A stretch of DNA of 36,454 nt. It comes from a virus. A model generated the notes under the pieces. That model searched no databases. It saw nothing but the letters and a program-made list of their open reading frames with translations, and was not told the origin of the DNA. The DNA lies in the IMG/VR virus record IMGVR_UViG_3300030329_005938, positions 1 through 36,454 of that record, one strand, 5' to 3'. The translations under genes and the position numbers were made by a program. Positions 4,608 to 36,454 of the stretch are shown piece by piece (within the stretch, counting starts at the first letter, position 1; each line of letters begins with the position of its first letter).

Positions 4608-5660
4608 ATGGCAACTACTTCCCTGACCATTGGAAACGAACTGCTTTCCACCACCATGCACATCCTGATGAAGGACTTTCGTGACAATGTTTACGAATCA
4701 GTAGCCTTCTTGGATGCACAAGAGCGTATTCACGGATCGGGTAAACCCGTTCAGTCTGGTGGATCACGCATCGTTGTTCCGCTTGGTTTTGGTGAGCACT
4801 CCTCAACAACCCGCCTTCAGACTGGTTTCGAGCGCATCGACCTTAGTGTCGAAGATGTGTTCCAACCTGCACAGTACGACTTCGGTCACGTTGTGCGTCC
4901 AGTCGCTATCTCTTCGGAAGAAGAAATGGTCAACCAAGGTGATGCTGCCATTCTCTCGATTCTTGAGAGCCGCGTGATGATGACTGCAAACGCTCTCAAG
5001 CGTGAGTACGTCAAGCAAATCGTTGCTGGTGGTCAAGCCGGTTGGGAAGATTGGAACACACTTAACGGCTTCGATGTCACCAGTGGAGATCACCAAGGGT
5101 TCCTCGAAGAGAACGCAGTAAGTGCTCAAGGAAACACTGTTGGTGGCGTAAGCAAGTCTACCTTCAGCGGAAAGACTGGTTGGCAAAACCAAATCTTTGA
5201 CGGTGCTGGATCGTTCAACTCGAACGGCCTCGCAGGTCTTTACGACCTCAAGGTTGAGATCAACGCTGTGTCTCCTTCTGGAGCGCCCAACGTGATCCTT
5301 GCTTCCCGCGCTGGCTTCAAGAACCTGAAGCGTGCCCTTCGGGCTCACGAGCGGTACGTCGATCAGTCCAAGATCGATGGTGGACGCATGATCGAAACCT
5401 TCGACGGTGTGCCAATCAACGTTGAGTACAACATGCCCAACGATGGTACTGCTACTACCGCTGATCCAATCAGCTTCTACTTCTTGAACATGAACGACAT
5501 CTACACCCTCTGGGATCCACAAGGTTACTTCGACCTGTCGGACTTCGAGACTGTGTCTGGTGAGTACGATGTTCGCGCTGCTAAGCTCCGGTGCCGTGGT
5601 CAACTGATCGCCAAGCACCTCGGTTCCAGCGGTGTTGCATTCGACCTGGATACCTTCTAG
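4608..5660 (+). CDS. Major capsid protein (HK97-fold type)
   Basis: A 350-aa protein with a strong ribosome binding site (AATAGGAGCC) before ATG 4608. It has an N-terminal helical arm followed by an E-loop-like beta segment (GGSRIVVPLGFGEHSS). Next comes a long spine-type helix (AAILSILESRVMMTANALKR), and then P- and A-domain-like regions with SPSGAPNVILASRAGFKNLK and FDGVPINVEYN. It ends with a strand-rich segment containing LWDPQGYFDLSDF. Length, position after the scaffold and rich use of optimal codons all fit the main shell protein. A terminator-like hairpin directly follows the stop codon, which suits a highly expressed transcript. Confidence 0.88.
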   Translation: MATTSLTIGNELLSTTMHILMKDFRDNVYESVAFLDAQERIHGSGKPVQSGGSRIVVPLGFGEHSSTTRLQTGFERIDLSVEDVFQPAQYDFGHVVRPVAISSEEEMVNQGDAAILSILESRVMMTANALKREYVKQIVAGGQAGWEDWNTLNGFDVTSGDHQGFLEENAVSAQGNTVGGVSKSTFSGKTGWQNQIFDGAGSFNSNGLAGLYDLKVEINAVSPSGAPNVILASRAGFKNLKRALRAHERYVDQSKIDGGRMIETFDGVPINVEYNMPNDGTATTADPISFYFLNMNDIYTLWDPQGYFDLSDFETVSGEYDVRAAKLRCRGQLIAKHLGSSGVAFDLDTF

Positions 5661-5672
5661 GTCATCCTGATT

Positions 5673-18852: not shown

Positions 18853-21800
18853 TTGGCCGAAAAAAGTGATAATGTTTTCGGCGACCTTCTTGATGAACAA
18901 CCAGTTAATCAAGTTGAGTTGCCTTTGGATACCGTAACTGACGCACCAGACGTTTTTGGTGATTTGTCTGAAGCCGCGTCATACGACCCTACAGATGTCG
19001 TTCCGGAAACCCCAGTAATCAGTCCTGAACAAGAAAAAATCAATGAGGACGCTGAACGTCAACTGAAACGTGATTCTGGTATTGATGTTTCACTGCCTAA
19101 AAGCGAAAGCTTTGAAAGCCCTGTTTTTGATGCAGTCGAGTTGCCAACTGTCGAAAGACAAGAATCTGTTGATGAAATTTTGCGTGCTCGTGATGAAGCA
19201 ATTGAAGCGAACGAAGATCAAATTTATCACTTAATGAAGCCTCAAGGGTTTTCAGACGAAGAAATCAATCAAGTCATCGAAGAACAAAAGAAAGAAATTT
19301 TGTCGACGACTGGCCAAGGTGGTTCTCGGATGATGTCGCTCGGTCCGACACAGCAAATGTTTTTGACTCACTTGGATATGGTCAAAGCGCAAACGATTCA
19401 AGACGAAAATATTTGGGATTCTGCACTCCGATTTTTCAGCAACGAGATTGATCCTAGCTTGATGACGACATTTGCTGCTATGCGAGCAAGAGGAATTGTT
19501 GATTTCGTTGAAGAAGCAAAAATTCGTGAAGCAGAACTTTTAAAAGAAGGCTTATCAAAAGAAGATGCTGAAAATCAAGTAATAGCTGAATTTGATGCAA
19601 GGGGTGTAGATCCCGTTGAGGCTACACGAAGTGATTATCAAAAAGAGTTGCGAACAATTGCTGGTTATAAGATTCAAGATAAAGATTTAAGTAGAGCATC
19701 TTATATATTGGCGGCAGGCCCAGCTTACCTTGCTGCTAAAAAGGGCCTTGTAGCAGGCGCAACATATGGTGCGCGAATAGGTAAAGGCCCTGGCGCAGTA
19801 ATAGGTGGCATCGGCGGCGCGCTAATATCGGGAGCCTCTGTAGGCATTTTAACGAAGATGGCGGTGATGTCAGGTTCATCGGGCAGATTTGATTATGATC
19901 CTGAAGATGAAGAGGAAAGAGCAAAGCTTGAATCAGATATTCCTGGCTTAAGAATAAGAAGAACAGCAAATAGTCAAGTTGCACTCGCTCAAAGTATTGT
20001 GGATGATTTTGGTGCTCCTGCAAACGTTGAAGCGTACCTAGAAGTAGCCACTGCTGAAGAAAAAGCTGAGTTAATAACCAGGGCAATTACTCTGGCCGAT
20101 GAATACGGCATTTCAGAAAAGCTACGAGACAACGAAAGCCTCAAAAGTTTGGTAGACGTTTTTTCGACTGCTCAACAACGATCGAAAGCTTTTCGAGATA
20201 TGGGATTTGCAGGTGGAACAACTCCATTGCATGGCTTCGCCTATAGTCCAATCGTCCGAAATTACGTCAAGTCTGCACTCGAAAGCGTAGACGCAACCAA
20301 AAAAGAAATAGAAGCTGTACAATATCTTATGGATGCTGGCGAGTTTATAGCGCGCGTGATGTCTCCTGGAACGATTCCCAATATTCTAGAACCTTATCAG
20401 GAAGAAATATTAGATTTCGGTGGTGAAGACGAATCTAATATTCCTGACATAGCTCAATTAATCGTGGACATTGGAACTGAAATTGCTGCCACAGATCAAT
20501 ACAGAGAGCAACAAGCTGCAAAAAGAGAAGCTGAAATTAAAAAGCTACGTGAAACAACGGAAGAGTTTCTCAGAGAGCGAAAAGTAACTTTTGAAGAAAA
20601 AACTGAAGTTTTAGAATGGTATTCTAATGTACGTCGAGGATTTATAGAAACTAGCGATTTTGATTATAAATTTAGACTGCAATCATTTGTAGACTCTCAC
20701 AAATGGAATGATGCCAACCCGAAATGGCGTGGTGAACAACCAGACGCTGAACGATTTACAGACTTTGTTCAAGCACATCTGCTTGCAGGCGGTAAACGTC
20801 AATACAGCGATCCACTAATGAACGCAGCAATTAAATCGGTGATTGATGAGGAGCCGAAAGAAGACTTGCAGCGATTGCTCAACAACATGAACCTCAAAAC
20901 GTTGAGAGAAATAGGAGGCAACAACATCAAACGTGTTTGGGAGTCTCCAAGCATCGAAGAAATTGAAGACTTCATGGATTCAATGGAAACAACACTCACT
21001 CAAGGAAAGGGTGGTGGTCGAGCAGCAAGTCGAGAAATGCAAAAAATGCTCGAACTTGAAACGATGAACAGAAAGGGAACCTTCTACGAGCCATCATTTT
21101 TCAACAAACTTCTTGGATATGCATCATTAGTTCCAACGACTTTGGCAGAAATACCTGTAAGCTTGCCAGATCACTTAAAACCGATTGTCGAATCGATGGG
21201 TCTCCCTTCGTCTACACCAGCCTATGAGGACTTCGAAAAGGGGCTTGGTATACGACCATTAAATTCTACTGTTTACGAAAGAGTGATTGCAAGACGTCGT
21301 TCTCTTACAGGTGGTTTTCAGCTTGGTTTCGAAGAAAACAAATTAGCTGAGGGATACCAACGACACGATCCAGAGTTCAATAAATCCTCAGCAGCAGGAT
21401 TTGTTTTGGATATGTTGAACTTCGAAAAGTATGGCGGCAAAGCTATCGGTAACGCGGCTAGAATAGGGTGGAATACTCCAAGCGCAATTGGTGCAACATT
21501 TAAATCAGGAACTCCAGCATCTAGAACCATTCAAGCTCGTAACGAGTTGTTGAAAAACACATCGTTTGATCGGACAACAGATCCTGTTGTATCAATGCAC
21601 CAGGCTCAAAAAGTTGGGGCACAAGAAGATTTGAACAGCGGTATCAATCCTGTTCGAAAGCACCTCACACCAGATGAACAAGACTTGTTTGATGACGTCC
21701 TGACCATGGCTGGTCGAGATCCCCGAGAAGTAAGGGCGGCGTTGGATTTAGCTGCCGGCAACGCCGAGACCATTAAAAATATATCTGAAGGACTCAAGGA

Positions 21801-24800
21801 GCGTTTGGGCCCGAATGATCTTGTAGTTTTAAGAAATCATCCGGAGTACAAACGACTTCATAACGATGTCTTCAACCTTGTTCGAAAAGGTAAAATCACA
21901 GCAGATGACGCAAACAGGTTTCTTGCTATTCTTGAAGATCAAGCAATTAGAATTGCTGAGTTGCCTGACAATCCATATCGGTCTGCAGTGGATGTCATTT
22001 CGAATCTAGAAATCGTCACAAATAGACCTGCAGGCACGGGCGCTCGATTTATGGGCAAAGGTCTTGAAGAAGTAGATACGGCACCTAAGGATCCATTCAG
22101 TCAGCCATTAAGACGTGACATAAGCATTGACCGTATTCGAGCCATTCTTGATGATGTAGATATTGATGAAAGTGATCCGAAATTTGTAGCCGACCTCAAG
22201 AAAAAATTTAACGTCGAGGTATTGGAAGACTTATCCGACACTGACCGAATCGCATTGAAAGAAGAGATTTATCGAGGCAAAATGAGCTTTTCGAAGCCCG
22301 CTAAGCCAAAGAAAATTTCAAAACCAAAAATTGTAAAGCTACAGCAACGGTATTCAAGCAAGTCGTATGAGAAAGCGCCTGGACCTTTAACTCGATCAAC
22401 TCGCAGGACCGCTAAGTATAAAGAACAACCACTTAGACAAAAAACAACTACAGATATTGCTGCAGAAGATTTTCGACGTGCAGATTCGCATACCGATTTG
22501 ATTGGAAATGAAAACCCAATCATACAAAACAAGAATTGGAACTCATGGTGGGGGGGGATCACAAACGCAAAAGGAAGGTTGCTTGAGCCGCCACTGAAGG
22601 TACGTGAATACGCAGATCCTAAAAAAATGGCCTCAGAGTTAGAGCGTCTTACTCCTGATCAAAAACGCAGAGCCGACAGCGGTATTCAGCTTGTCGAACA
22701 ATTAGGAGCGTTGTACGAAACTGGAAGAGCACAAGCCAACCTTACTGCACAGCTTTTGGGTTGGACAATTCTGAGTCGATCACTGTCCGCGTTCCCTCAC
22801 GAAAGCGCATTCTTGGATGCATTTTTGAGTGCTCCACCCGCTTCAATTTTCAAATCAAATTTCGGAGATTTCATCAAGAGGGCACTTGATGGTACTTTTG
22901 ATGAGAAAGCTCTTCTTGAATATGACGTTTGGGTTGGAGGGATTCATCGTCGTCGAGCAGCAGATAAATTGCTTGCAGACGGAGAAATCGACCAAAAGAC
23001 CTACAATCTGTATGTAGGCAGAGACAAAAAAGTTGTCGATTCGTTGGTTAAGCGTGGGGTGATTGAAAAAGATGACGTGGGCATGTTTTTTGTCAATCCG
23101 TTGCCCAACATTAAAAAGAATCGAGTTGCGAATGGAGAAGTCGCAACGGCGATGTCTAATGCTCGCAAATTAGCTGAATCTTTGAGACGACAAGATTTGA
23201 TTTCTATCGATGAGTTCAGGGCGCTGGTTGGGTTTCAACCGGCTTTGCGAATTGAAGGCACGGGCAATCCTGCGGCAGCTAATCTTCGTGCTTTCGGTAA
23301 GAACTTCTTGTTGCAGTCCTCCGAGCGATTGCCTGGCGGAAAACCTTTGATTGGCATGGAAGGTCGCACTTTTGATTTTGGAGGTCAAACAAAACTCGAA
23401 GCTTGGCACAACATTTTGTTGGACATGTCTATTAGTGGGCAGGAGGCCCGCAGGTTGTACCACCAAATATATCAAGGCGCAGGAATCGACAACAAGGTGA
23501 TTTCATTCATGTTGTTAGCTGCGGGTCGCAAAGATGTAATTGTCATTGATAGGATTCAAGCAAATCACTTTTGGGGCGCGGCTGAAAACTTGCTTGGCAG
23601 AAAGGTGCTTCGAAAAGATGGAAGTAAGATCGATCTATATGAGGGTTTTTCTGCACCTGACTTCAAGGATTTTTCCTCCAATAGCGTTCAATCATGGGCA
23701 AAAAACCCGAGGCCATTCTCAACAACGAGAGGTTTAGCAGACGTATTGAACGGTGCGAGAGGTAGCGTCCTCTATGAGGCAATTGAAAACCTACTCAGCA
23801 AAAGTTTGTCTGAAGCTTACAGGCTTGCTGGTCGAGAAGGTGAAGGAAGCCTTGGTCGTTTTCATTGGGAGACTTGGGTGATCAATAGTGGCCAAGAAGT
23901 GGGTCACGACACCCTCAACGTCATATTGAAGCAAGCTCAAGGCTTTGATCGTCCTGCTGAGGGGGCGTTTGTTAGTGAAGGCAAGTTTCAAATGCGTCGA
24001 TATGGCATGCAATATGCCGTATTACCTGACAACCAACAGGCCATGGTGGTTTCCACTCAGGATGGAACGCCGTATATTTTCGTTCCAGAGAGTTGGGCCA
24101 AGGTTGTTGACAAATTGACTCGCGATGGTGCGAATGTTAACCCTGCTGATGGAACGCCGAGAGTAGTACCAAAAGGATGGAAGTTAGAAAATGAAAAATT
24201 TGCCAACACTCCGTGGTATCACCGAGCGTCTGTTAACCGCGACGCCATCGACATTGCCATCCGATCAAACGGAAGAAGAGCAACTACTGACGAAATTGTG
24301 GCACTGGAGAGATTCGCCGGTCGAGCCGGAAGTGGTCGAGTCAAAAGTCCAAGAGTTCGAGAAGCCGGAGTAGATCAAGTACAGTTTCGTGAAATTACTG
24401 ACTATGATCTATTTGAACGCGCAAAAGACAATAATACCAGAGCTGAAAACCTAGCTCCGAAATCACTTGATGAATACGAAGGCGCTCGTGTTTTCATGAT
24501 TGAATCGAATGACGCTGGGTTCATGGTCAAAAATGGTGACCTCCAGAACGTCTTCAACAACTCAGGCATCGTCGGTCTTGGGACCGAAATGCTCAAATTG
24601 TCCATTGAAAAATATGGAGCCAGAACGCTCGATTGCTACGATGGATTCCTACCCAAATACTACTCGAAAGCAGGCTTCGTAGAAATTGCAAGAGTGCCTT
24701 GGGATGACGGTGAAGCGCCAGCAGGATGGAATTATTTTAAGCTCGGTCGACCAGATGTTGTTATGATGGCTTATCAGGGTGGAAATCCTGATTTGATTAG

Positions 24801-27800
24801 GAGTAATTTTGGAAGATTTAGAGAATATACAAGAACAAACAACCGAACAACAGACTATGGAGCAGCCGAAGAACTCACCCGACGATCAGTCCGAGATAGC
24901 GGAGATCCGAGAGGAGTGGAGGCAGTGGGCGCTGAGCCACCACGGAGAGGCGTGGGTGAACAGCCACTTCGAGGCCGAGTGGGAGAGGACAAAACACCTG
25001 ATTCTGTAGAGCCTACAGTAATCAGACTGATTGATCCTACAAGCGATACAAAGTATCAACGAAAGAAAGGGGTTCCGCTGGGCTACTTCGAGTACGACCA
25101 GCGGACTCGTCTAGCGATTATCAACCTCTTTGAAAGAGGAGATCTTGACACTCTTTGGCACGAGAACGGCCACTTCATGGCCACGCTCATGGGCGAGCAG
25201 TACAAGAACAACATTTTCAAACATTTCGATTTTGAAATTGATGAAACAGGTTCTCGCAAGCTGACAGACGTCGGTCACGAGCAGTTTGCTGAAGCTTGGA
25301 GATATTACAGACGAGTGCGTGATTATCCAGACGGATACTTGCGCCGTTTGTTTGATGAGTTGTGGATTGCTTTGCATAATCTTTGGTCTAAGATTCGTCG
25401 CAAACCAGGATTGCTTCCTGATGAAGTTCGAGAGTATTGGGACTTAGAGTTCGGATCATTGCCGCAAGATCGTCGGTCTGTGAACTCTGCTGTTTCAGGA
25501 GCAATGTACAAAAAGAAATCTCGTAGCATGACTAAGAGGTTTGACCCCGATGACCTTGATGATGGTGCAGCGGTCAGCAGGGCTCAGTTACGGGTGGCAA
25601 AAGATCTTGGATATGACGAAAATACTATTCGTTCTTTGCTCGGAGATCGGCCTACAAACACTGTTCGCTCACAACCTGACTTGCAAGTATCTCCGGGGGA
25701 ACAACCACGAATACAGCGTGTAGTTGAGCGAACCTTTGAGCCACGATCATATGATGCAGTTGATGCCGGTTTAGAAATTTTTGCTTTGATCAAAAACTCA
25801 AAATTCAGAAAAGACTTGTCTGGCAAAAAACTGAGCACTGTTGGGACTGGTCGATACCAAGTACCTACGACGATTCTCAAACAATTGACTGACAACGTCA
25901 ACACTCGAATGACAGCAGCAATTGGAATGCAGGTAGCTAAGTTTAGAGACAAACTTTTTTATCCAGACAAAACAGGAATCAACGCAATTGGCCGTCGACA
26001 AACAATTCCTGAGGGCGTGAACACTCAAGATATTGCTGCGTTTCAAAAAAGATTGAAAGTTCAAAATCCTGAAAGAGATCCACAAACTCATCGTAGTAGT
26101 GTTTCATTCTTTGTATTGACCGACCGAGAGCAAGCTGGATTCAAGACACTTATTCAAGAGCTTGCAAGGCAACCTGAAGCTGATTCAATTCCGTTTGGTT
26201 TGCTGGACCCAGATGTAAACTTGAAGTTGTTGTCGATCGATGAATACAACTTTATCCACGGAGTGTTGACCGATGTTACGGCAACGCCCCTTCAGAGACG
26301 AAACAGAAATCAAGTACACCCTGGGTACCTGCAATCGTTTGCGGCAATACTTGGTGACGCTCAGGTTACTGAAGCGGTTGGCGACATATTCAAAGATATT
26401 GGTCGATTCTTTGGTAAAAAACCAAAGCTAGACCGGCAAGATCTTGATCCACAACTTGTGGATATTTTGGAAGGTTTTGGTAGGCGAGCGATTGGCTCTG
26501 GGGAAGACCTTGTAAGATATTCAAAAAGCAAAAAGTTTGGTCCTGAAGATGACTTGTACAACTTTTTCGGTGATGTTGTCGACCGTGCTGCTCCCAGAGT
26601 CAGTCTTGCGAATTTGACGGGATTACAAAAAATCCATCAACGATTGAGCGGCACTGTTAGAAACATGACTCTTGACGCCGCTGAAAGGGCGAAAAGCGAT
26701 GTTACTACAGGCGCAAATCGACCAGTAACGTATGACCCAATAGTTACTGGTGGCGGTAAACTGACCATCGAAACAATAAGTCAGGATATTCCCCTTATTC
26801 AAGATTTGCTTGATGGTCCTTTTGGAATGACTGCAGCAGAAAGAGAAGCCATCATTGGTATTCGATCTGTGCATGAGCAAATGAAAAGAGGTCGAAGCCC
26901 ATCCGATTTTACACCAGAAGAACGAACAGTTATCGGTTCTGCAATAGAGATTCTACATTTAGGCATTGATGAAAAATATCAATATGTGAAAAATCAAGCA
27001 GAACGAATTTATGAACGAGTGATGGCTGTTGAAGGTGTTGTAGATACAGACTTTAGAAAAGATTATGTATATGACATTTATAGAAACTTCTATTCTGGAA
27101 ATTTCCTTGAATTGTTCAAAATGGCCGGCAATATCAAGAATGTTCGTCAGGCTCCAAAAACTGCTAGACGAACGTACAATCTTGGATTCTTAAATCGTTT
27201 TATTGAATTCAATCTTCCTGCATTAAATAAACTTACAAGAGCACGAACAAAGCGTTTGAAAAAAGAGGGCTTGCTTGATCGAACATTAGGCGGAACCCTG
27301 CCAGAGTACGAACAATCCGTCATAGCTCTTATGATTTTGACAAAAATGGATGAGCTTAAGCAGGATCTTGCAAGTGAGCTTGTTCGGTACGGCTTTGTCG
27401 CAAATAGGCGTAAGATTGTATCTGATCTCGGACTTCTCTCAGATGTGAGCGTAAGCACTGAGCGGTATCTTGATCGTGTTCAATTTTATGTAAACCGGAC
27501 TCTTCAATACGGTGACATTACAAAAATTCCTGTTGATGATCTGGGCAAAAGGGCTGGAGAAATCACTTATGCAAAAACAGCAAAAGAGTTCGATGACCTT
27601 TACGGCCCAGCAGAAAATCCAAAAACATTCCGTGGCGATGCTGAAATTATCAATCGCTTAGATCTGACTGCTCTTCACGAGGCCGATCAAATCATTGCTC
27701 GTTTGGGAATTAAGCCTGGGCGTGGAACCCTTGAGACTGTTGACATTGGCGGCCAACTGTTCTTCATGCCAAAAGTTGCAGTCGAATTTTTGGAAGATCA

Positions 27801-29871
27801 TATTCAGCAAACCTTTCCCAAAACAAGGTTGAAAAAAACATGGGGTCAAAAAGGTAAGGTGGTGCATCGATTGACGGGACGCATCCCAGAACGAACGTTG
27901 CCGAAAAAAATTGTTGATATGGCTGCGGAGTCTGCAAGCTCACTTGTAAAAGTAGGTGAGTTTTTGATTTCGCCAAGATCGTTTTACACTGGCCTATTGA
28001 TTGGTACTGGTGGGCTCCCCATGGTTGGATACGGCATGGGTGTGTTTATTGGTGGTCTCAGTCAGTTACATCTGGGTAAAGGCGCTACTGAAACGATTAA
28101 GGCCGCTGCTGCTGCTCCGGCAACATTGGCTGAAGCTTTGCCATTCGTCAGAGATCTTTCAGAGGCCGTCAGAGGGCAGGTGGGCTTTTCAGCGGCAGTG
28201 CTTGCTCGAATTCACGGTAGAGGCTCAGCGAAGCCTTTTGCGAAAGCAATCGTTCTTGCCGATGGTCGTATCATTACGGCTGACATGGTTGCAGAAAGTG
28301 TTCGTAAACATGGATGGAAAAGCGCATTCGTTGACGTAATTAAGAACCCAGACACATTCGAAAATCTGTACAACCGGTTCAACAAAACCAATCCAACGTT
28401 AGCTAATACTGTTGTGTTCGGAGCGGGTGGCGCTCCGTACGGAGTAACGAGCGCAGTATTGTCGGCTGCATTGGGCGCTTCGGTTGGTGAAGCACTCAAG
28501 CCAGGAAATATATTTGGTAAGCTCCACAGGAACTATGCAGAGGCGTTTGCTGCAATCGATTCATACTTGAGAATTCGAGTGTTGCTTAGTGAGTTGAATG
28601 AGGGCAAAGCACTCGAAGATGCCGCACCTAAAGTTCGTGACATCATGTTGGATTACTCGGCAATGAGTGATGCAGAGCGTGCAATAATTGCAAGATACTT
28701 TGCGTTTTGGTCATATTTCTCTCAAGCAAACAAGTTGTTTTTCACTGCTGCAATTGAGAACCCTGATCGAATTGTTACTCAACTTAAATTTGCCTTGAAC
28801 ACCCAGCGAACAATTACACAAGGTAGAGATCCCGACAAATTTTTGCCACCATGGGATCGATACAGGTCAAGCATTCCGTTCAAGATTGATGGGCATTACT
28901 TCCGACTGCCGTTTTTGATAACTGGCGATACGTTAGGAATGTTGTCGGAGCTTGCGACTGTACTTGCGCCATTTGAAATGCCGGACGAAGCGAGGAAAAA
29001 AGCTTCGCTTGCAATCACTGGACGATTGAGTCCACAGATTGGTTTGGGAATCGCAACAGTTCTTGGGGTCGACCCAGGACTGGGCTTTCCGCTCGACCGT
29101 GCAACGCTTCAAGTTCCGGCTGAACTTATTGAAATAGACGCTCTTCTTTTCGGTGGTGCTTTGTGGGACTACTTGGAAATCAAATATGTTCCACCCGATA
29201 AGATCAAGATGGTCTTCGATGATCCTGAAAAAGGAAAAGTAAGGATTAATCCCAACAACATAGAAAGCCCCGGTCAAGGAATATGGATTTCGCAGTCTCC
29301 AGTAAAATATTATTACCTAATGAATTACTTGCAGACTCCGCTGACTGGCCGCATGGGTGACAACATGTGGGCTTTGAGTCGGGCTAATGCGGGTCCGATC
29401 GCAGGATTCGTTGATGGTTTGGAATATGTAAAAGCAACATACAGTCCCGATAAGCCCATCATGGCGAACTTTGGAGTGTTGAATGCACTGTCTGTTATGG
29501 GTCTGGATATTCCAGACAAAAACCGGACTCCTAAAGGTGATGATGAAGCTTTGATGCCCGGTGAGACTCCATACCTCCCGCCTTCCGCAGTTGTTGATCC
29601 AAACCAACAGTTGGTAACGGCACCGCTCGACCTACTTAAGCAGGCAGCAATTGCCTACGAAGGAGAGGATGGAACGGTTGAGGTATATACAAATAGATTT
29701 TTCTGGCCAGAGTTAGGTCGCATTGTTGGTATGACAAGAGTGCCAAATCGCGATGAAGAACGACCTGCTGTTATGGAATATCGTAGACATATGAAACAAG
29801 CTCAAGAAAGTGCCCGAGAACAAGAAAAGCAAACTTCTGAAGGTATCGATCTAGACATCATCGGCGAATAA
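18853..29871 (+). CDS. Giant multidomain virion (polyvalent/ejection-type) protein
   Basis: A 3672-aa protein. Start TTG 18853 is set by GGAG at 18843-18846; no in-frame ATG is near. Order of parts (residues): VFGDL tags at 8-12 and 34-38; Gly-rich hydrophobic segment about 285-340; helical regions; about 1276-1680 a segment resembling HhH DNA glycosylases; about 1847-1976 a GNAT-like segment; R/G/E-rich linker about 1985-2060; zincin site H2103-E-N-G-H2107; more helical regions; hydrophobic stretches about 3037-3076 and 3182-3214; and about 3224-3417 a segment like the C-terminal domain of large polyvalent proteins. I infer it is packaged and injected with the DNA, carrying several effectors. 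I looked for N4-type virion RNA polymerase motifs and found none. A tape measure is unlikely because there are no other long-tail genes. The gene is about 30% of the window, has no frameshift, and lies next to the peptidase sharing its tag. Confidence 0.8.
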   Translation: MAEKSDNVFGDLLDEQPVNQVELPLDTVTDAPDVFGDLSEAASYDPTDVVPETPVISPEQEKINEDAERQLKRDSGIDVSLPKSESFESPVFDAVELPTVERQESVDEILRARDEAIEANEDQIYHLMKPQGFSDEEINQVIEEQKKEILSTTGQGGSRMMSLGPTQQMFLTHLDMVKAQTIQDENIWDSALRFFSNEIDPSLMTTFAAMRARGIVDFVEEAKIREAELLKEGLSKEDAENQVIAEFDARGVDPVEATRSDYQKELRTIAGYKIQDKDLSRASYILAAGPAYLAAKKGLVAGATYGARIGKGPGAVIGGIGGALISGASVGILTKMAVMSGSSGRFDYDPEDEEERAKLESDIPGLRIRRTANSQVALAQSIVDDFGAPANVEAYLEVATAEEKAELITRAITLADEYGISEKLRDNESLKSLVDVFSTAQQRSKAFRDMGFAGGTTPLHGFAYSPIVRNYVKSALESVDATKKEIEAVQYLMDAGEFIARVMSPGTIPNILEPYQEEILDFGGEDESNIPDIAQLIVDIGTEIAATDQYREQQAAKREAEIKKLRETTEEFLRERKVTFEEKTEVLEWYSNVRRGFIETSDFDYKFRLQSFVDSHKWNDANPKWRGEQPDAERFTDFVQAHLLAGGKRQYSDPLMNAAIKSVIDEEPKEDLQRLLNNMNLKTLREIGGNNIKRVWESPSIEEIEDFMDSMETTLTQGKGGGRAASREMQKMLELETMNRKGTFYEPSFFNKLLGYASLVPTTLAEIPVSLPDHLKPIVESMGLPSSTPAYEDFEKGLGIRPLNSTVYERVIARRRSLTGGFQLGFEENKLAEGYQRHDPEFNKSSAAGFVLDMLNFEKYGGKAIGNAARIGWNTPSAIGATFKSGTPASRTIQARNELLKNTSFDRTTDPVVSMHQAQKVGAQEDLNSGINPVRKHLTPDEQDLFDDVLTMAGRDPREVRAALDLAAGNAETIKNISEGLKERLGPNDLVVLRNHPEYKRLHNDVFNLVRKGKITADDANRFLAILEDQAIRIAELPDNPYRSAVDVISNLEIVTNRPAGTGARFMGKGLEEVDTAPKDPFSQPLRRDISIDRIRAILDDVDIDESDPKFVADLKKKFNVEVLEDLSDTDRIALKEEIYRGKMSFSKPAKPKKISKPKIVKLQQRYSSKSYEKAPGPLTRSTRRTAKYKEQPLRQKTTTDIAAEDFRRADSHTDLIGNENPIIQNKNWNSWWGGITNAKGRLLEPPLKVREYADPKKMASELERLTPDQKRRADSGIQLVEQLGALYETGRAQANLTAQLLGWTILSRSLSAFPHESAFLDAFLSAPPASIFKSNFGDFIKRALDGTFDEKALLEYDVWVGGIHRRRAADKLLADGEIDQKTYNLYVGRDKKVVDSLVKRGVIEKDDVGMFFVNPLPNIKKNRVANGEVATAMSNARKLAESLRRQDLISIDEFRALVGFQPALRIEGTGNPAAANLRAFGKNFLLQSSERLPGGKPLIGMEGRTFDFGGQTKLEAWHNILLDMSISGQEARRLYHQIYQGAGIDNKVISFMLLAAGRKDVIVIDRIQANHFWGAAENLLGRKVLRKDGSKIDLYEGFSAPDFKDFSSNSVQSWAKNPRPFSTTRGLADVLNGARGSVLYEAIENLLSKSLSEAYRLAGREGEGSLGRFHWETWVINSGQEVGHDTLNVILKQAQGFDRPAEGAFVSEGKFQMRRYGMQYAVLPDNQQAMVVSTQDGTPYIFVPESWAKVVDKLTRDGANVNPADGTPRVVPKGWKLENEKFANTPWYHRASVNRDAIDIAIRSNGRRATTDEIVALERFAGRAGSGRVKSPRVREAGVDQVQFREITDYDLFERAKDNNTRAENLAPKSLDEYEGARVFMIESNDAGFMVKNGDLQNVFNNSGIVGLGTEMLKLSIEKYGARTLDCYDGFLPKYYSKAGFVEIARVPWDDGEAPAGWNYFKLGRPDVVMMAYQGGNPDLIRSNFGRFREYTRTNNRTTDYGAAEELTRRSVRDSGDPRGVEAVGAEPPRRGVGEQPLRGRVGEDKTPDSVEPTVIRLIDPTSDTKYQRKKGVPLGYFEYDQRTRLAIINLFERGDLDTLWHENGHFMATLMGEQYKNNIFKHFDFEIDETGSRKLTDVGHEQFAEAWRYYRRVRDYPDGYLRRLFDELWIALHNLWSKIRRKPGLLPDEVREYWDLEFGSLPQDRRSVNSAVSGAMYKKKSRSMTKRFDPDDLDDGAAVSRAQLRVAKDLGYDENTIRSLLGDRPTNTVRSQPDLQVSPGEQPRIQRVVERTFEPRSYDAVDAGLEIFALIKNSKFRKDLSGKKLSTVGTGRYQVPTTILKQLTDNVNTRMTAAIGMQVAKFRDKLFYPDKTGINAIGRRQTIPEGVNTQDIAAFQKRLKVQNPERDPQTHRSSVSFFVLTDREQAGFKTLIQELARQPEADSIPFGLLDPDVNLKLLSIDEYNFIHGVLTDVTATPLQRRNRNQVHPGYLQSFAAILGDAQVTEAVGDIFKDIGRFFGKKPKLDRQDLDPQLVDILEGFGRRAIGSGEDLVRYSKSKKFGPEDDLYNFFGDVVDRAAPRVSLANLTGLQKIHQRLSGTVRNMTLDAAERAKSDVTTGANRPVTYDPIVTGGGKLTIETISQDIPLIQDLLDGPFGMTAAEREAIIGIRSVHEQMKRGRSPSDFTPEERTVIGSAIEILHLGIDEKYQYVKNQAERIYERVMAVEGVVDTDFRKDYVYDIYRNFYSGNFLELFKMAGNIKNVRQAPKTARRTYNLGFLNRFIEFNLPALNKLTRARTKRLKKEGLLDRTLGGTLPEYEQSVIALMILTKMDELKQDLASELVRYGFVANRRKIVSDLGLLSDVSVSTERYLDRVQFYVNRTLQYGDITKIPVDDLGKRAGEITYAKTAKEFDDLYGPAENPKTFRGDAEIINRLDLTALHEADQIIARLGIKPGRGTLETVDIGGQLFFMPKVAVEFLEDHIQQTFPKTRLKKTWGQKGKVVHRLTGRIPERTLPKKIVDMAAESASSLVKVGEFLISPRSFYTGLLIGTGGLPMVGYGMGVFIGGLSQLHLGKGATETIKAAAAAPATLAEALPFVRDLSEAVRGQVGFSAAVLARIHGRGSAKPFAKAIVLADGRIITADMVAESVRKHGWKSAFVDVIKNPDTFENLYNRFNKTNPTLANTVVFGAGGAPYGVTSAVLSAALGASVGEALKPGNIFGKLHRNYAEAFAAIDSYLRIRVLLSELNEGKALEDAAPKVRDIMLDYSAMSDAERAIIARYFAFWSYFSQANKLFFTAAIENPDRIVTQLKFALNTQRTITQGRDPDKFLPPWDRYRSSIPFKIDGHYFRLPFLITGDTLGMLSELATVLAPFEMPDEARKKASLAITGRLSPQIGLGIATVLGVDPGLGFPLDRATLQVPAELIEIDALLFGGALWDYLEIKYVPPDKIKMVFDDPEKGKVRINPNNIESPGQGIWISQSPVKYYYLMNYLQTPLTGRMGDNMWALSRANAGPIAGFVDGLEYVKATYSPDKPIMANFGVLNALSVMGLDIPDKNRTPKGDDEALMPGETPYLPPSAVVDPNQQLVTAPLDLLKQAAIAYEGEDGTVEVYTNRFFWPELGRIVGMTRVPNRDEERPAVMEYRRHMKQAQESAREQEKQTSEGIDLDIIGE
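22678..23890 (+). other. Domain in giant protein: HhH DNA-glycosylase-like core
   Basis: Within residues about 1276-1680 of the giant protein, GIDNK (1544-1548) is followed after 18 residues by D1566 in VIVIDR. OGG1-type HhH glycosylases have the same order: GVGTK with catalytic K249, then D268 in VPVD, 19 residues apart. Upstream, a helix (LTAQLLGWTILSRSLS, from 1297) recalls the 'A.LSP..' helix of phage proteins with this core, though about 230 residues are inserted between. A conserved-looking HWETW (1671-1675) follows. The assignment is by eye. Confidence 0.45.
24391..24780 (+). other. Domain in giant protein: GNAT acetyltransferase-like
   Basis: Residues about 1847-1976 show the GNAT order. 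A strand with SNDAGFMVKNGDLQNVF comes first. Then G1908-L-G1910-T starts a helix, as in the acetyl-CoA-binding R/Q-x-x-G-x-G/A loop. LDCYDGFLPKYYSKAGF follows, matching the common Y-x-K-x-GF motif near the end of GNAT folds. The first position of the R/Q-x-x-G-x-G loop is not conserved, so activity is uncertain. Confidence 0.5.
24809..25009 (+). CDS. Possible overlapping small gene inside the giant gene (+1 frame)
   Basis: A 66-codon ORF one base out of frame with the giant gene. It starts at TTG 24809 behind AGGAG (24799-24803, five-nt spacing). The product is acidic and Trp-containing (EIREEWRQWALSHHGEAW, then VNSHFEAEWERTKHL) and looks like a normal soluble helical protein. The giant frame here is low-complexity R/G/E-rich linker. 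Bases 24901-24960 are 40/60 G+C against 18/60 in 24781-24840. It may be a real overprinted gene, or the relic of an inserted piece now read out of frame. Confidence 0.3.
   Translation: MEDLENIQEQTTEQQTMEQPKNSPDDQSEIAEIREEWRQWALSHHGEAWVNSHFEAEWERTKHLIL
25081..25455 (+). other. Domain in giant protein: zincin metallopeptidase-like
   Basis: Residues 2103-2107 read HENGH, a perfect HExxH zinc site in a helix (TLWHENGHFMATLMG). A third ligand could be E2147 in EQFAEAW, 40 residues on, a layout seen in zincin domains of phage polyvalent proteins. The rest is helical with a basic end (LHNLWSKIRRKPG). It would be a protease acting in the virion or in the host. Confidence 0.55.
28522..29103 (+). other. 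Domain in giant protein: polyvalent-protein C-terminal (LPD38-like)
   Basis: Residues about 3224-3417 include MLDYSAMSDAERAIIARYF followed by AFWSYFSQANKLFF. This resembles the 'DYS.LT..ER....R.iPFy.w...N' signature of C-terminal domains in large phage polyvalent proteins (I recall LPD38). It follows two hydrophobic segments, which suggests membrane contact. Recalled from memory, not searched. Confidence 0.5.
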
Positions 29872-33857: not shown

Positions 33858-34723
33858 TGAGTAGACGTCCAGGAAATTTTTCGCATCAGTTTGTGGGTCG
33901 GAGAAAAAAAGTTGTTTCTGGCTGGCGTGATTTTGATCCGTTTCACCCGCACGCGACAAACAATGGTTTTCCAAACAGTCAATTGGCTTCACTTACTGTC
34001 AATTCATCTAGACAACTGGTGGCAACGTTTAACGATGCAATCGCAACGGCTGGTAGCACCTTGGCGGGCAGTGACGTATACGCCATACCACTAACGAACA
34101 AAGACGGAACCCGAGTAACGTTTGCGGATTCGTTTATACTCAAAACCCAAGTTGAGATCATCAGCGCATCGGGTGACATTAAAAACACCACTAACTATGC
34201 GCAGCCGTTTGTGGCCCTGGGTATTGGTCAGCACGCCGACGCAGACGACAGCACGAACCACTACGCGGCATATGGGATCTGGCTTTGGGATCGGGACGGC
34301 AGCAACAACATAAAGATGGCAGGCTGTGGGTTCCGCACAACGAACGTAGACACGCACAACGCAGTACAAGACTTCGACACCGGAGCGATCACTGACTTCA
34401 AAGGCAACCCACCGACTGGTCAGGTCATTACCGATTACTATCTTGGTCCGGGTCTGGGGTCTGCATTTACCGATACAAACGTGGTGAACTTGGCTAACTG
34501 GATCGGCGAAAACCAAACCGGTAGCTATACGAAACGGTCGGTGCCTGGTTTTGACCTATCAAACGCTAACGGCCAATTCGACGTTGATACACAGGTATAC
34601 CTGTACGCCGTCTTCGGGGTGAAGGCGGCGATCGATGGTTCAGAGGATCAAGCTTCAGTAACGTGTCGTTTGCGGTACATGGTAAACTCTAATGACGGCA
34701 AAGATGGGACGGCAACAGCATGA
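33857..34723 (+). CDS. Paralogous surface protein, second copy
   Basis: A 288-aa beta-rich protein with ATG 33857 sharing one base with the preceding stop (TAATG). The N-terminus PGNFSHQFVGRRKKVVSGW aligns with the previous gene (PGNFSHTSVGRSKHARTGW), and the middle (TFADSFILKTQVEIISASGD) and end also align. Sequences have diverged widely elsewhere, as expected for receptor-facing proteins. Local GC is somewhat higher than in the first copy. No catalytic motif. Confidence 0.6.
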   Translation: MSRRPGNFSHQFVGRRKKVVSGWRDFDPFHPHATNNGFPNSQLASLTVNSSRQLVATFNDAIATAGSTLAGSDVYAIPLTNKDGTRVTFADSFILKTQVEIISASGDIKNTTNYAQPFVALGIGQHADADDSTNHYAAYGIWLWDRDGSNNIKMAGCGFRTTNVDTHNAVQDFDTGAITDFKGNPPTGQVITDYYLGPGLGSAFTDTNVVNLANWIGENQTGSYTKRSVPGFDLSNANGQFDVDTQVYLYAVFGVKAAIDGSEDQASVTCRLRYMVNSNDGKDGTATA

Positions 34724-34923
34724 CACAAGATGATTGCAATAATTCTATGTCCAATGTTTCATTGAACTCGCAAACTACTCAAATCGTATCTGATTCAAGT
34801 AACCAAAGTTACGATCAAATATACCTAAAAGGTGAAATTGAGCAGACCATTTGGGATGCTGCCCTGGCATCTGCTGATGACGCCCTTGTGCTAGTACAAT
34901 GGTTAGAATCTAAGAGAGGTTGA
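34720..34923 (+). CDS. Small soluble protein upstream of the holin-like gene
   Basis: A 67-aa protein. ATG 34720 overlaps the previous stop (ATGA), so translation is probably coupled. The first 35 residues are Ser/Asn/Gln-rich and disordered. The rest is one amphipathic helix (EQTIWDAALASADDALVLVQ). No membrane segment. It could be a holin partner or a small virion protein. The function is unknown. Confidence 0.5.
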   Translation: MTQDDCNNSMSNVSLNSQTTQIVSDSSNQSYDQIYLKGEIEQTIWDAALASADDALVLVQWLESKRG

Positions 34924-34924
34924 C

Positions 34925-35116
34925 ATGCAAGCTTTTATCGACAAACTTTTTTGTTCTCAAAAACGAGTATCTTGGCGGCGACTGGCCGTGCTCATTCTCG
35001 GAACCGGACTGTTGGCAACTGGTCTACTTGATTCTGAGCAGTGGCTGTATCTTAGTCTTGCTTATATCGCTGGTGATTCTGCCGAAAAGGCAATGAGTGC
35101 AATTTCTAAGAAGTAG
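34925..35116 (+). CDS. Holin-like small membrane protein
   Basis: A 63-aa protein with AGAGGTTGAC before ATG 34925. It has a basic start (MQAFIDKLFCSQKRVSWRR), then a hydrophobic helix (LAVLILGTGLLATGLL), a short turn, and a second moderately hydrophobic helix (WLYLSLAYIAGDSAEKAM) with a basic end. Two membrane helices in about 60 aa with charged ends is the usual design of small phage holins. Holins are too diverse for a sequence-level call. No endolysin gene is next to it in this window. Confidence 0.5.
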   Translation: MQAFIDKLFCSQKRVSWRRLAVLILGTGLLATGLLDSEQWLYLSLAYIAGDSAEKAMSAISKK

Positions 35117-35119
35117 TAG

Positions 35120-35494
35120 ATGGCTTTTGTAACGACAAAATTTGACGATGCGACGTCATTCAAAGTTGCTTATCACTCGCAAATAACCAATGCGGTGACT
35201 AGCAATTTGACTGGCGGTGCTGGATCTTTGTACTCAATTAAAATTGAAAACTCTAATGATGCAGCGGTGTATATAAAAATTGCCAATGCATTCACGGCCA
35301 CGTCTGGATCAACAGCACCGGATTGGATTTTTTCTTGTCCTGCTGCATCTACATACACATATGAAATACCGAATGGCGTTGCTTTTAAGGCATTGTCAGT
35401 TTGGGCGAATGAAAATGCTGTTGAAACCGACAATACTACGCCCAGTGTTAGTGGTAACGAAACTGTCCAAGTGACGATTGTGACGGGTTCATAA
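35120..35494 (+). CDS. Small beta protein, first of a tandem pair
   Basis: A 124-aa beta-rich protein starting at ATG 35120, three bases after the previous stop and with only a weak ribosome site (AAGAAG). It shares its layout with the following gene: a strand SLYSIKIENSNDAAVYIKIA, a Pro-rich turn, a strand near YTYEIPNGVAF, and a final strand QVTIVTGS. It looks like one beta-sandwich domain, probably a surface component. Confidence 0.55.
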   Translation: MAFVTTKFDDATSFKVAYHSQITNAVTSNLTGGAGSLYSIKIENSNDAAVYIKIANAFTATSGSTAPDWIFSCPAASTYTYEIPNGVAFKALSVWANENAVETDNTTPSVSGNETVQVTIVTGS

Positions 35495-35883
35495 TGGCAA
35501 ACACGAAAACAATTCTTGGTAACCTGGCCCCTAAACTTGTAGTTGATGAGGACGCAGACACTACTGCTGCGTCTGATGTTACAGGAACTACTGGTTCTGC
35601 CTATGTAATTGAAATAGACGCAACGGCTGGAACACCCACAACTGCAGAGCCTGCTTGCTACGTCAAAATTATTGATGCAGATTCAAGTGTTGTTGGTGGA
35701 GGGGGTAGCAGTTCTGTTCCAGAGCTTGTTCTTTACGCTCCGATTGGTCAGGTCACAACATACGTTATTAGCAGTGGTTGGGCTTTTTCGAGTGGTCTTA
35801 GTTTTTGGGCAGTAACAACTGCTGCTGTAGCTGGAGACACTTCTCCGACATCTGATGTTAAAGTAACAATCCTAACAACATAG
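35494..35883 (+). CDS. Small beta protein, second of a tandem pair
   Basis: A 129-aa protein whose ATG 35494 shares a base with the previous stop. It contains SAYVIEIDATAGTPTTAEPA, CYVKIIDADSS, TTYVISSGWAF, and ends VKVTILTT, all in the same order as in the preceding gene. The paralogues have diverged strongly but keep the same length and fold pattern. Function unknown; a decoration-type role is a guess. Confidence 0.55.
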   Translation: MANTKTILGNLAPKLVVDEDADTTAASDVTGTTGSAYVIEIDATAGTPTTAEPACYVKIIDADSSVVGGGGSSSVPELVLYAPIGQVTTYVISSGWAFSSGLSFWAVTTAAVAGDTSPTSDVKVTILTT

Positions 35884-35891
35884 GTTTAAAA

Positions 35892-36125
35892 ATGATTGAT
35901 GAAAAAGTAACCTGGGCAGCAACAGAACTGAACTCTAAGTTTGGCAACCATAAGCAAGCTGGCAAAGTTTTGCTGTGCGTTATTGCAGATCTGATGGCTG
36001 AACTTGAAGCAGCAAAAGCTCCCGCCAAAAAAGCTCCCGCCAAAAAGACTCCAGCCAAAAAGGCTACCGCCAAAAAGGCTCCTGCGAAAAAATCAACAAA
36101 ACGAAAAACCACAACCAAAAAATGA
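35892..36125 (+). CDS. Histone H1-like basic protein
   Basis: A 77-aa protein with AGG ten nt before ATG 35892. Residues 1-40 form a short folded part with a hydrophobic helix (AGKVLLCVIADLMAELEA). Residues 43-67 are five 5-residue units (APAKK, APAKK, TPAKK, ATAKK, APAKK), followed by a Lys/Thr/Arg tail (STKRKTTTKK). The tail is like the C-terminal tail of eukaryotic histone H1 and of bacterial H1-like proteins, which bind DNA by charge. A DNA- or RNA-condensing role, or packaging with the ejected DNA, is possible. Lys-Ala repeats also arise by slippage, so the repeat alone does not prove a function. Confidence 0.6.
   Translation: MIDEKVTWAATELNSKFGNHKQAGKVLLCVIADLMAELEAAKAPAKKAPAKKTPAKKATAKKAPAKKSTKRKTTTKK
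36018..36092 (+). repeat. Five 15-nt units coding [A/T]-[P/T]-A-K-K
   Basis: Five in-frame 15-nt units (GCTCCCGCCAAAAAA and variants) encode the Lys-rich tail of the H1-like protein. Units differ at several bases, so they are diverged rather than freshly expanded. Confidence 0.85.
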
Positions 36126-36133
36126 TTACTATC

Positions 36134-36221
36134 ATCATTCCGATTGCCACATGTTGATTTGAAAATCTATTTAGAAGCTGACCTGTTGTGGCTTTCGGAT
36201 TGTTTATGAGATTGGAATGAT
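36134..36221 (+). promoter_or_regulatory. Nested inverted repeats across the last intergenic gap
   Basis: ATCATTCCGAT (36134-36144) pairs with ATTGGAATGAT (36211-36221) over 11 positions with one G-U pair. Inside it, GCCACA (36146-36151) pairs with TGTGGC (36187-36192). The right arm covers the GGA and ATG (36217-36219) at the start of the next gene, so the structure could block or control its translation. No T-run follows, so a terminator is unlikely. Confidence 0.5.
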
Positions 36222-36454
36222 AAAAATGGACCCTATTTCTTGGACCGCAATAGCCGTTTTGGCTTCATTAGGCGTTGGTTTTGGTGCAGGCTGGGGCATG
36301 AAGCCAGACGCGGGCACAAAAGCTATTGAAGCCCAAACTGAGGCCATTAAAGAACTGAATACTGGCAACCAGGCGCTCGTCGATAAAGTGCAGGAGGTTG
36401 CGGTGGAAGAGGCTAAACGTGAAACTGTGATTGCGGATAAGCTCACAGATATGC
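36217..36454 (+). CDS. Membrane-anchored coiled-coil protein, 3'-partial (spanin-like?)
   Basis: An open frame from ATG 36217 (or ATG 36226, three codons later with GGA nine nt upstream) to the end of the window, with no stop seen. About residues 7-26 form one hydrophobic helix (WTAIAVLASLGVGFGAGWG). A helical, charged segment follows (GTKAIEAQTEAIKELNTGNQ, then ALVDKVQEVAVEEAKRETV). An N-terminal anchor plus a coiled coil is the plan of an inner-membrane spanin, and a holin-like gene lies 1.1 kb upstream. The missing 3' end prevents a firm call. Other small membrane coil proteins also fit. Confidence 0.5.
   Translation, partial: MIKMDPISWTAIAVLASLGVGFGAGWGMKPDAGTKAIEAQTEAIKELNTGNQALVDKVQEVAVEEAKRETVIADKLTDM

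Follow-up and report, generated by a model that had tools for sequence, protein, structure and literature searches.

At positions 36127 to 36199 of the window, the 36,454 bases that make up the whole of IMG/VR record G000 (classed as linear), we identified an element composed of an invariant box and a covarying helix, H1 (Table 1). It is located on the plus strand, preceded by the stop codon of a lysine-rich gene and followed by the Rz-like gene with which the putative lysis cassette begins, and it is present in a single copy in the records searched. We put at about one half the probability that this element is a conserved cis-acting intercistronic RNA which controls or insulates the expression of the lysis cassette. 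The timing of lysis in tailed phages is for the most part explained by holin biochemistry; the element may help to set the timing or the level of lysis gene expression, and if this is true, conserved RNA control at the entrance of the lysis cassette would be an extra, testable layer in an uncultured phage group.

The same region had been proposed earlier, from the window alone, to form nested inverted repeats in which an 11-pair outer stem closes the start of a possible spanin gene and delays lysis. Covariation in metagenomic relatives replaces this stem, picked by eye, with a well-supported one that uses the same arm.

Table 1. Features at the end of the window.
Feature	Position	Strand	Basis or remark
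Upstream gene, 77 aa, lysine/alanine-rich repeat tail	35892 to 36125	+	ORF list
Invariant box TACTATCATCA	36127 to 36137	+	11 of 11 positions identical in all 21 pairwise comparisons, seven rows
Outer stem, left arm ATCATTCCGAT	36134 to 36144	+	Present in the sequence; overlaps box and H1 5' arm; no covariation
H1 5' arm UCCGAUUGCCAC	36139 to 36150	+	Covarying 12-bp helix, RNAalifold
Loop motif, directly 3' of the H1 5' arm	36151 to 36157	+	Alignment A2
H1 3' arm GUGGCUUUCGGA	36188 to 36199	+	Covarying 12-bp helix, RNAalifold
Outer stem, right arm ATTGGAATGAT	36211 to 36221	+	Overlaps Shine-Dalgarno (SD)-like GGA (36214 to 36216) and first ATG (36217)
Rz-like spanin candidate, putative first gene of the lysis cassette, truncated at record end	36226 to 36454	+	phrog_2466 (weak)

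Helix H1 and the stems first proposed

RNAalifold, run de novo on the relatives, returned H1 and nothing else. In alignment A2, 97.2% of the H1 cells are paired and 8 of the 12 pairs are changed on both sides. The covariation score of 0.739 (shuffled mean, 0.395) was reached by none of 500 shuffles, and sliding the partner by 1 to 3 columns lowered pairing to 25 to 58%. One of five measures, the number of further pair types, was not above the shuffles (15 versus 13.9; 164 of 500 as high). The evidence comes from six distinct sequences, whose 72 helix cells include 9 G-U and 2 U-U (both in the window) but no A-C. The presence of G-U cells and the absence of A-C cells argue that it is the sense RNA that folds, and because the covariation tolerates G-U, it suggests that RNA rather than DNA is under selection at H1. 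The window copy forms 10 of the 12 pairs, with two adjacent U-U mismatches, and A36151-U36187 can extend the helix to a 13th position. Taken from these comparisons, the hairpin structure is well supported. Folding of single sequences is more variable: H1 reached a probability of 0.84 and 0.94 in two further flank contexts of the window, 0.59 in L045 with 20-nt flanks, and only 0.02 in L036 with 60-nt flanks, and the z-scores of the elements are modest (-0.47 to -2.84). No helix is common to the loops of the six elements; a second helix within the loop, H2, was better than shuffles in one of six (L057, 5/300).

Both arms of the outer stem are present as originally described, separated by 66 nt and able to form 10 Watson-Crick pairs plus one G-U pair. 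The inner stem, GCCACA (36146 to 36151) with TGTGGC (36187 to 36192), is also real, but it had been described too small, being the apical half of H1. The right outer arm, said to cover the start codon region, does overlap the SD-like GGA and the first ATG, while the probable start at 36226 lies outside it. Indeed, 6 of 48 relatives (L016, L018, L037, L038, L042, and L044) lack any of ATG, GTG, and TTG where the first start, 36217, would be (L043 could not be judged, and the start of L045 is divergent). The downstream gene therefore probably starts at the second ATG, 36226, with 36217 as the alternative, and the right arm would thus cover the SD-like GGA and not the start codon.

The gap at 36126 to 36216 is, with 91 nt, the longest between the main ORFs as picked (next, 86 nt). 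When RNA 36126 to 36230 was folded, as the original prediction had suggested, the outer stem led on this bare 105-nt piece (0.61 versus 0.40 for H1, an advantage of 0.4 kcal/mol), but the stability of the piece is by itself unremarkable (z = -1.55; 19 of 200 shuffles as stable). With native flanks, in four segments of 131 to 301 nt, the outer stem fell to 0.01 to 0.05 versus 0.92 to 0.95 for H1 and became 0.8 to 2.6 kcal/mol worse. A single 11-pair stem is also not rare, since the plus strand of the window holds 145 such registers (G-U allowed, loop 3 to 80), versus 58 to 95 in five codon-block shuffles.

We also considered whether the outer stem could close the SD and start of the spanin gene and so delay lysis, perhaps as a switch state alternative to H1. 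The two structures exclude each other, sharing the 5' arm, and besides its slight lead on the 105-nt piece, the outer stem keeps 8 to 9 of its 11 pairs in L003, L036, and L057, by sequence conservation. However, only 2 and 3 of the 11 pairs are kept in L045 and L011, and the SD region pairs with the box or the 5' arm at a mean of only 0.00 to 0.21 in the five other distinct elements (0.04 to 0.13 in the window). Arms that do not covary in relatives had been named at the outset as the observation that would speak against the stem, and covariation is absent: in alignment A1, none of the 11 pairs is changed on both sides, 68.9% of the cells are paired (406 of 500 shuffles as high), and the covariation score was reached by 270 of 500 shuffles. 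Across the six distinct elements, we found no conserved pairing over the SD or start. The closing of the spanin start, and a switch built on it, is thus highly improbable, and we dropped the outer stem as a functional structure. Since it does not covary, unlike H1, chance together with conservation of sequence is the best account of it.

The box, the loop motif, and candidate mechanisms

The box (UACUAUCAUCA) stands 0 to 2 nt before H1. Two of the seven rows in which it was compared carry the same element. Over the same rows, four-fold sites of gene 35120 agree at 0.16 to 0.69, and those of the spanin agree at 26 to 84% (the L058 row, out of register with 6 to 7 sites, was left out); four-fold agreement without the two closest pairs is 16 to 56%. 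The box is hence invariant against nearby four-fold codon sites that have largely diverged. The loop motif reads AUGUUGA in the window and UUGUUGA, UUGUUGG, or UUGCUGA in relatives, with 5 to 7 of 7 positions identical in pairwise comparisons. Spacing varies little: 1 to 7 nt separate the upstream stop codon from the box, the hairpin begins 13 to 18 nt past that stop, the loop measures 36 to 38 nt, and 26 to 33 nt lie between the end of H1 and the spanin start codon, leaving the SD outside H1 (L045 was counted to its ATG, and a GTG occurs earlier).

A pseudoknot between box and loop gave duplex energies of -2.6 to -8.4 kcal/mol but is unsupported, because the partner is different in each sequence; the box showed no consistent pairing with either the loop or the 3' flank. 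We also discarded a leader peptide in the gap, since by eye no frame with a start is kept across relatives.

The exact box occurs once per record in the six element-bearing records searched. The 8-nt core of the box was found at 18 sites across 10 records (0 to 6 per record), a count for which the reversed-sequence comparison is no control, being part of the box itself. One-mismatch boxes exist at like spacing in G001 and G007, and another, 5.9 kb downstream in G002, is antisense within a 285-aa ORF.

These counts bear on the possibility that transcription of a separate lysis mRNA starts here, with the box serving as a promoter element and the hairpin forming the 5' end of the transcript. TACTAT is close to the consensus -10 hexamer, transcription from it would begin near the base of H1 and so give the mRNA a stabilizing 5' hairpin, and the matching gap of T7 holds an Escherichia coli promoter. 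On the other hand, no sigma-70-like site was found in 34500 to 36454, the sequence 5' of the box varies and consists largely of lysine and alanine codons, and the exact box did not recur at several places in any of the six element-bearing records, as a recurrent phage promoter would. A Pfam search of 12 records detected no T7-type RNA polymerase, a result which is uninformative because its control was silent. Altogether, we consider a promoter quite unlikely.

The element was then compared with known RNA classes. A cmscan of the whole window against Rfam release 15 returned no family at the gathering cutoff, low-threshold scans of the window region, five relatives, and one element alone gave only matches far below cutoff, and ARAGORN found no tRNA or tmRNA gene in the window. 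There is no intrinsic terminator at the element in the window, whose loop is in the range of 36 to 38 nt, and none 3' of H1; a loose T-tract measure of 5 T in 8 bases is passed by two of the six elements, the window (6) and L011 (5), and failed by the other four.

The closest known layout is that of T7 genes 18 and 18.5, where a 94-nt gap directly before the Rz-type gene 18.5 folds with a 10-bp hairpin (z = -2.11). We take this hairpin to be RNase III site R18.5, although it is not annotated as an RNase III site in the T7 records examined, and no invariant box is known there. The record also places the E. coli promoter in this gap. The likeness drawn here is one of layout; unlike T7, the element here is single copy, and no T7-type polymerase was detected (control silent).

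By analogy with T7, the element could be an endonuclease processing or mRNA stability site, at which RNase III cuts the hairpin or the hairpin guides RNase E to the box; cleavage would then split off the lysis mRNA from that of the structural genes, in the manner of the intercistronic hairpins of T7. Position and size match the T7 layout before gene 18.5, and RNase III processes early and later transcripts of T7 (PMC4858673). However, an RNase III processing site is a near-continuous duplex of about 20 bp, whereas only 12 continuous pairs are conserved here, the second helix, which would bring the duplex close to two helical turns, exceeds shuffles in L057 alone (1 of 6), and the window copy carries two U-U mismatches. 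RNase III sites are also not known to need an invariant 11-nt flanking box. On balance, we regard such a site as rather unlikely.

Two further known systems were compared. The arrangement here, with a structure lying between a stop codon and a downstream SD, all within about 140 nt, resembles intercistronic control and translational coupling in operons; the difference is that the hairpin leaves the SD outside. Direct occlusion of the SD is not the mechanism, because H1 leaves it uncovered. The element also resembles candidate structured RNAs from comparative genomics, metagenomic DNA included, in its covarying stem, conserved single-stranded parts, and fixed gene context (PMC2864571); its difference from those candidates was judged through the Rfam release 15 non-match. 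Among the titles listed in the literature searched, which took in few subscription journals, none describes the element. Conserved intercistronic RNA hairpins are known as a kind, and this box-plus-hairpin family appears to be new.

In the reading that we favor, a conserved intercistronic RNA acting in cis, the element would be carried on a late polycistronic mRNA between the last tail-side gene and the first gene of the lysis cassette. The 12-bp hairpin with its 36- to 38-nt loop and the invariant box in front of it would together gate expression or insulate it. The hairpin would lie near the front of a ribosome terminating at the upstream stop codon, and the element would break the close stop-to-start spacing seen in relatives that lack it. 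Translation of the lysis cassette, or processing of its mRNA, might then require a factor, either protein or RNA, by which the box and the loop motif are recognized. More tentatively, we suggest as one possibility a new class of phage regulatory RNA, in which a box-plus-hairpin would sense a trans-acting protein or RNA by means of its invariant 11-nt sequence and gate ribosome entry or mRNA processing into the lysis cassette.

Distribution among relatives

Relatives were recovered through the last gene of the window, which gave 48 loci, the longest contig among them measuring 74 kb; a search with the spanin alignment gave a best 80 of 84 loci, many on the same contigs. Besides the window, the element is found in seven other IMG/VR contigs, L003 and L004 (identical), L011, L036 and L039 (identical), L045, and L057, making six distinct sequences with the window included. 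It always occupies the same place, between the stop codon of the lysine-rich gene and the Rz-like gene. A covariance model, R1, built from the detected element sequences or identical ones, scored 71.8 to 95.4 bits in 7 of 50 relative records, once each and at the same place, and 69.5 bits, once, in the window. This set of 50 leaves out L051, L043, and G000. Five further records gave weak matches of 11.6 to 22.6 bits, so that 12 of 50 had a match at an E value of 0.5 or less. A box-and-helix screen covered 339 loci, and R1 was also run over 10, 90, 17, and 80 fetched loci; 39 of the 119 newest loci were screened by the helix script alone and gave sites of at most 11 of 12 pairs. Among the matches listed in pattern scans of viral contigs (at least 120, at least 120, 96, and 8 stretches), only known records were accepted.

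The R1 match of 22.6 bits (L050:5323-5409, equal to L340:4823-4909 and also found at L051:3922-4008) lies inside a coding gene and was rejected as chance. It has 12 standard pairs followed by CUGUUGA, and the 35120-type gene of its contig is the closest to that of the window, the element being absent. Matches in L219 and L229 (26.8 bits, preselected by pattern), in L397 (23.8 bits, with mispairs), and at lower scores were likewise taken as chance.

The distance from the upstream gene to the aligned spanin start is 2 to 21 nt in 38 of the 46 loci with a readable upstream gene and 90 to 100 nt in 6 of 46, all of which bear the element. In this count, L043, whose match begins at base 2, and L010, without an upstream ORF, were left out, and spurious overlapping ORFs were passed over in favor of the row homologous to the neighbors' upstream gene. 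Since the 38 relatives with a short gap have a downstream gene of the same kind without the element, the group as a whole can do without it. Longer gaps without it are those of L038 (256 nt) and L044 (153 nt). In L038, the 256-nt stretch has no upstream ORF of 50 aa or more and contains a strong hairpin of its own at 2901 to 2969 (14 pairs, 2901 to 2914 with 2956 to 2969), 40 nt before the spanin ATG and by eye unrelated to the element.

A tree of 20 rows of the 35120-type gene places the element-bearing rows in one group of 10 (support, 87/86; branch not starred), with three label changes. Two members of the group are without the element: in L340, other genes follow the lysine-rich gene, and in L350, the contig stops before the element's place. 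The spanin of L041 differs from that of L039 in 2 of 132 residues, but its upstream gene is different and no element is present. The element thus seems to go with the upstream module, and the upstream gene could therefore be its target. Inheritance of the element seems to follow the tail-side module, with loss or replacement at points of module exchange. The near-identical spanin products of L041 and of L036 and L039 stand behind different upstream genes, an exchange of modules at the spanin boundary. At the spanin's place, L360 (4510 to 4947) and L050 (about 5230 to 5670) have another gene, whose product shows by eye a signal-like N terminus and a C-terminal membrane-type segment.

The position of the element where tail and lysis modules exchange (L041 and L050) is also what one would see if it were a module boundary or recombination site without a role in lysis, and the invariant 11-mer beside a stem looks like the seed of a trans-acting small RNA cut from the mRNA. 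Against a boundary site, the G-U-tolerant covariation suggests selection on RNA and not on DNA; against a small RNA, there is no terminator after H1, and the antisense of the box, at up to one mismatch, occurs once in seven phage records (G001:58231, mismatched) and is absent from the window. We hold either of these to be unlikely.

The phage and its flanking genes

The window carries tailed-phage structural genes and is distant from named phages. Its major head protein matched phrog_9953, and comparison of the capsid protein with GenBank phages gave two distant records, at 25.1% and 23.7% identity. GenBank phages gave no match to the last 2.5 kb as DNA, to the spanin, or to the first large protein, and on the host side, the spanin alignment found no relative among genome contigs. 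Judging from the sample numbers, the phage group is presumably marine.

The stop codon of the upstream gene is 1 nt 5' of the box in the window. Lysine-rich genes homologous to it also precede the element in relatives, and the one of L003 has a weak, subthreshold match to the histone-like HC2. The number of lysine/alanine repeats varies among near relatives (86 aa in L003 and 76 aa in L004).

Downstream, the spanin candidate has by eye, from the alignment, a transmembrane-like N terminus and a cysteine-bearing C terminus; one or more cysteines occur in 507 of 528 two-component spanins (PMC6139136). Its match to phrog_2466 is weak (E value of 2e-4 for the part in the window and 0.0074 for the full-length relative of L003), and it has no Pfam match above cutoff, so we assign it to the spanins only weakly. 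In L003, a second small membrane-type gene comes next after the spanin candidate; its matches are all weak and include a holin family (E value, 0.0031). An endolysin-like gene (phrog_33083, E value of 5.6e-16; also phrog_3000) comes after it. We call these three genes, as predicted from their sequences, the lysis cassette. That an RNA structure stands in the gap before a possible spanin gene, the more general part of the original prediction, is accordingly upheld by the covarying H1, the phrog_2466 match, and the endolysin-like gene two genes on in L003.

Elsewhere in the window, a single ORF of 3672 codons (18853 to 29871) has as its sole PHROG match phrog_2563, a 134-position family of unassigned function, and a zinc-ribbon ORF (2282 to 2947; PF09723, E value of 2.3e-16) overlaps the end of the preceding long ORF.
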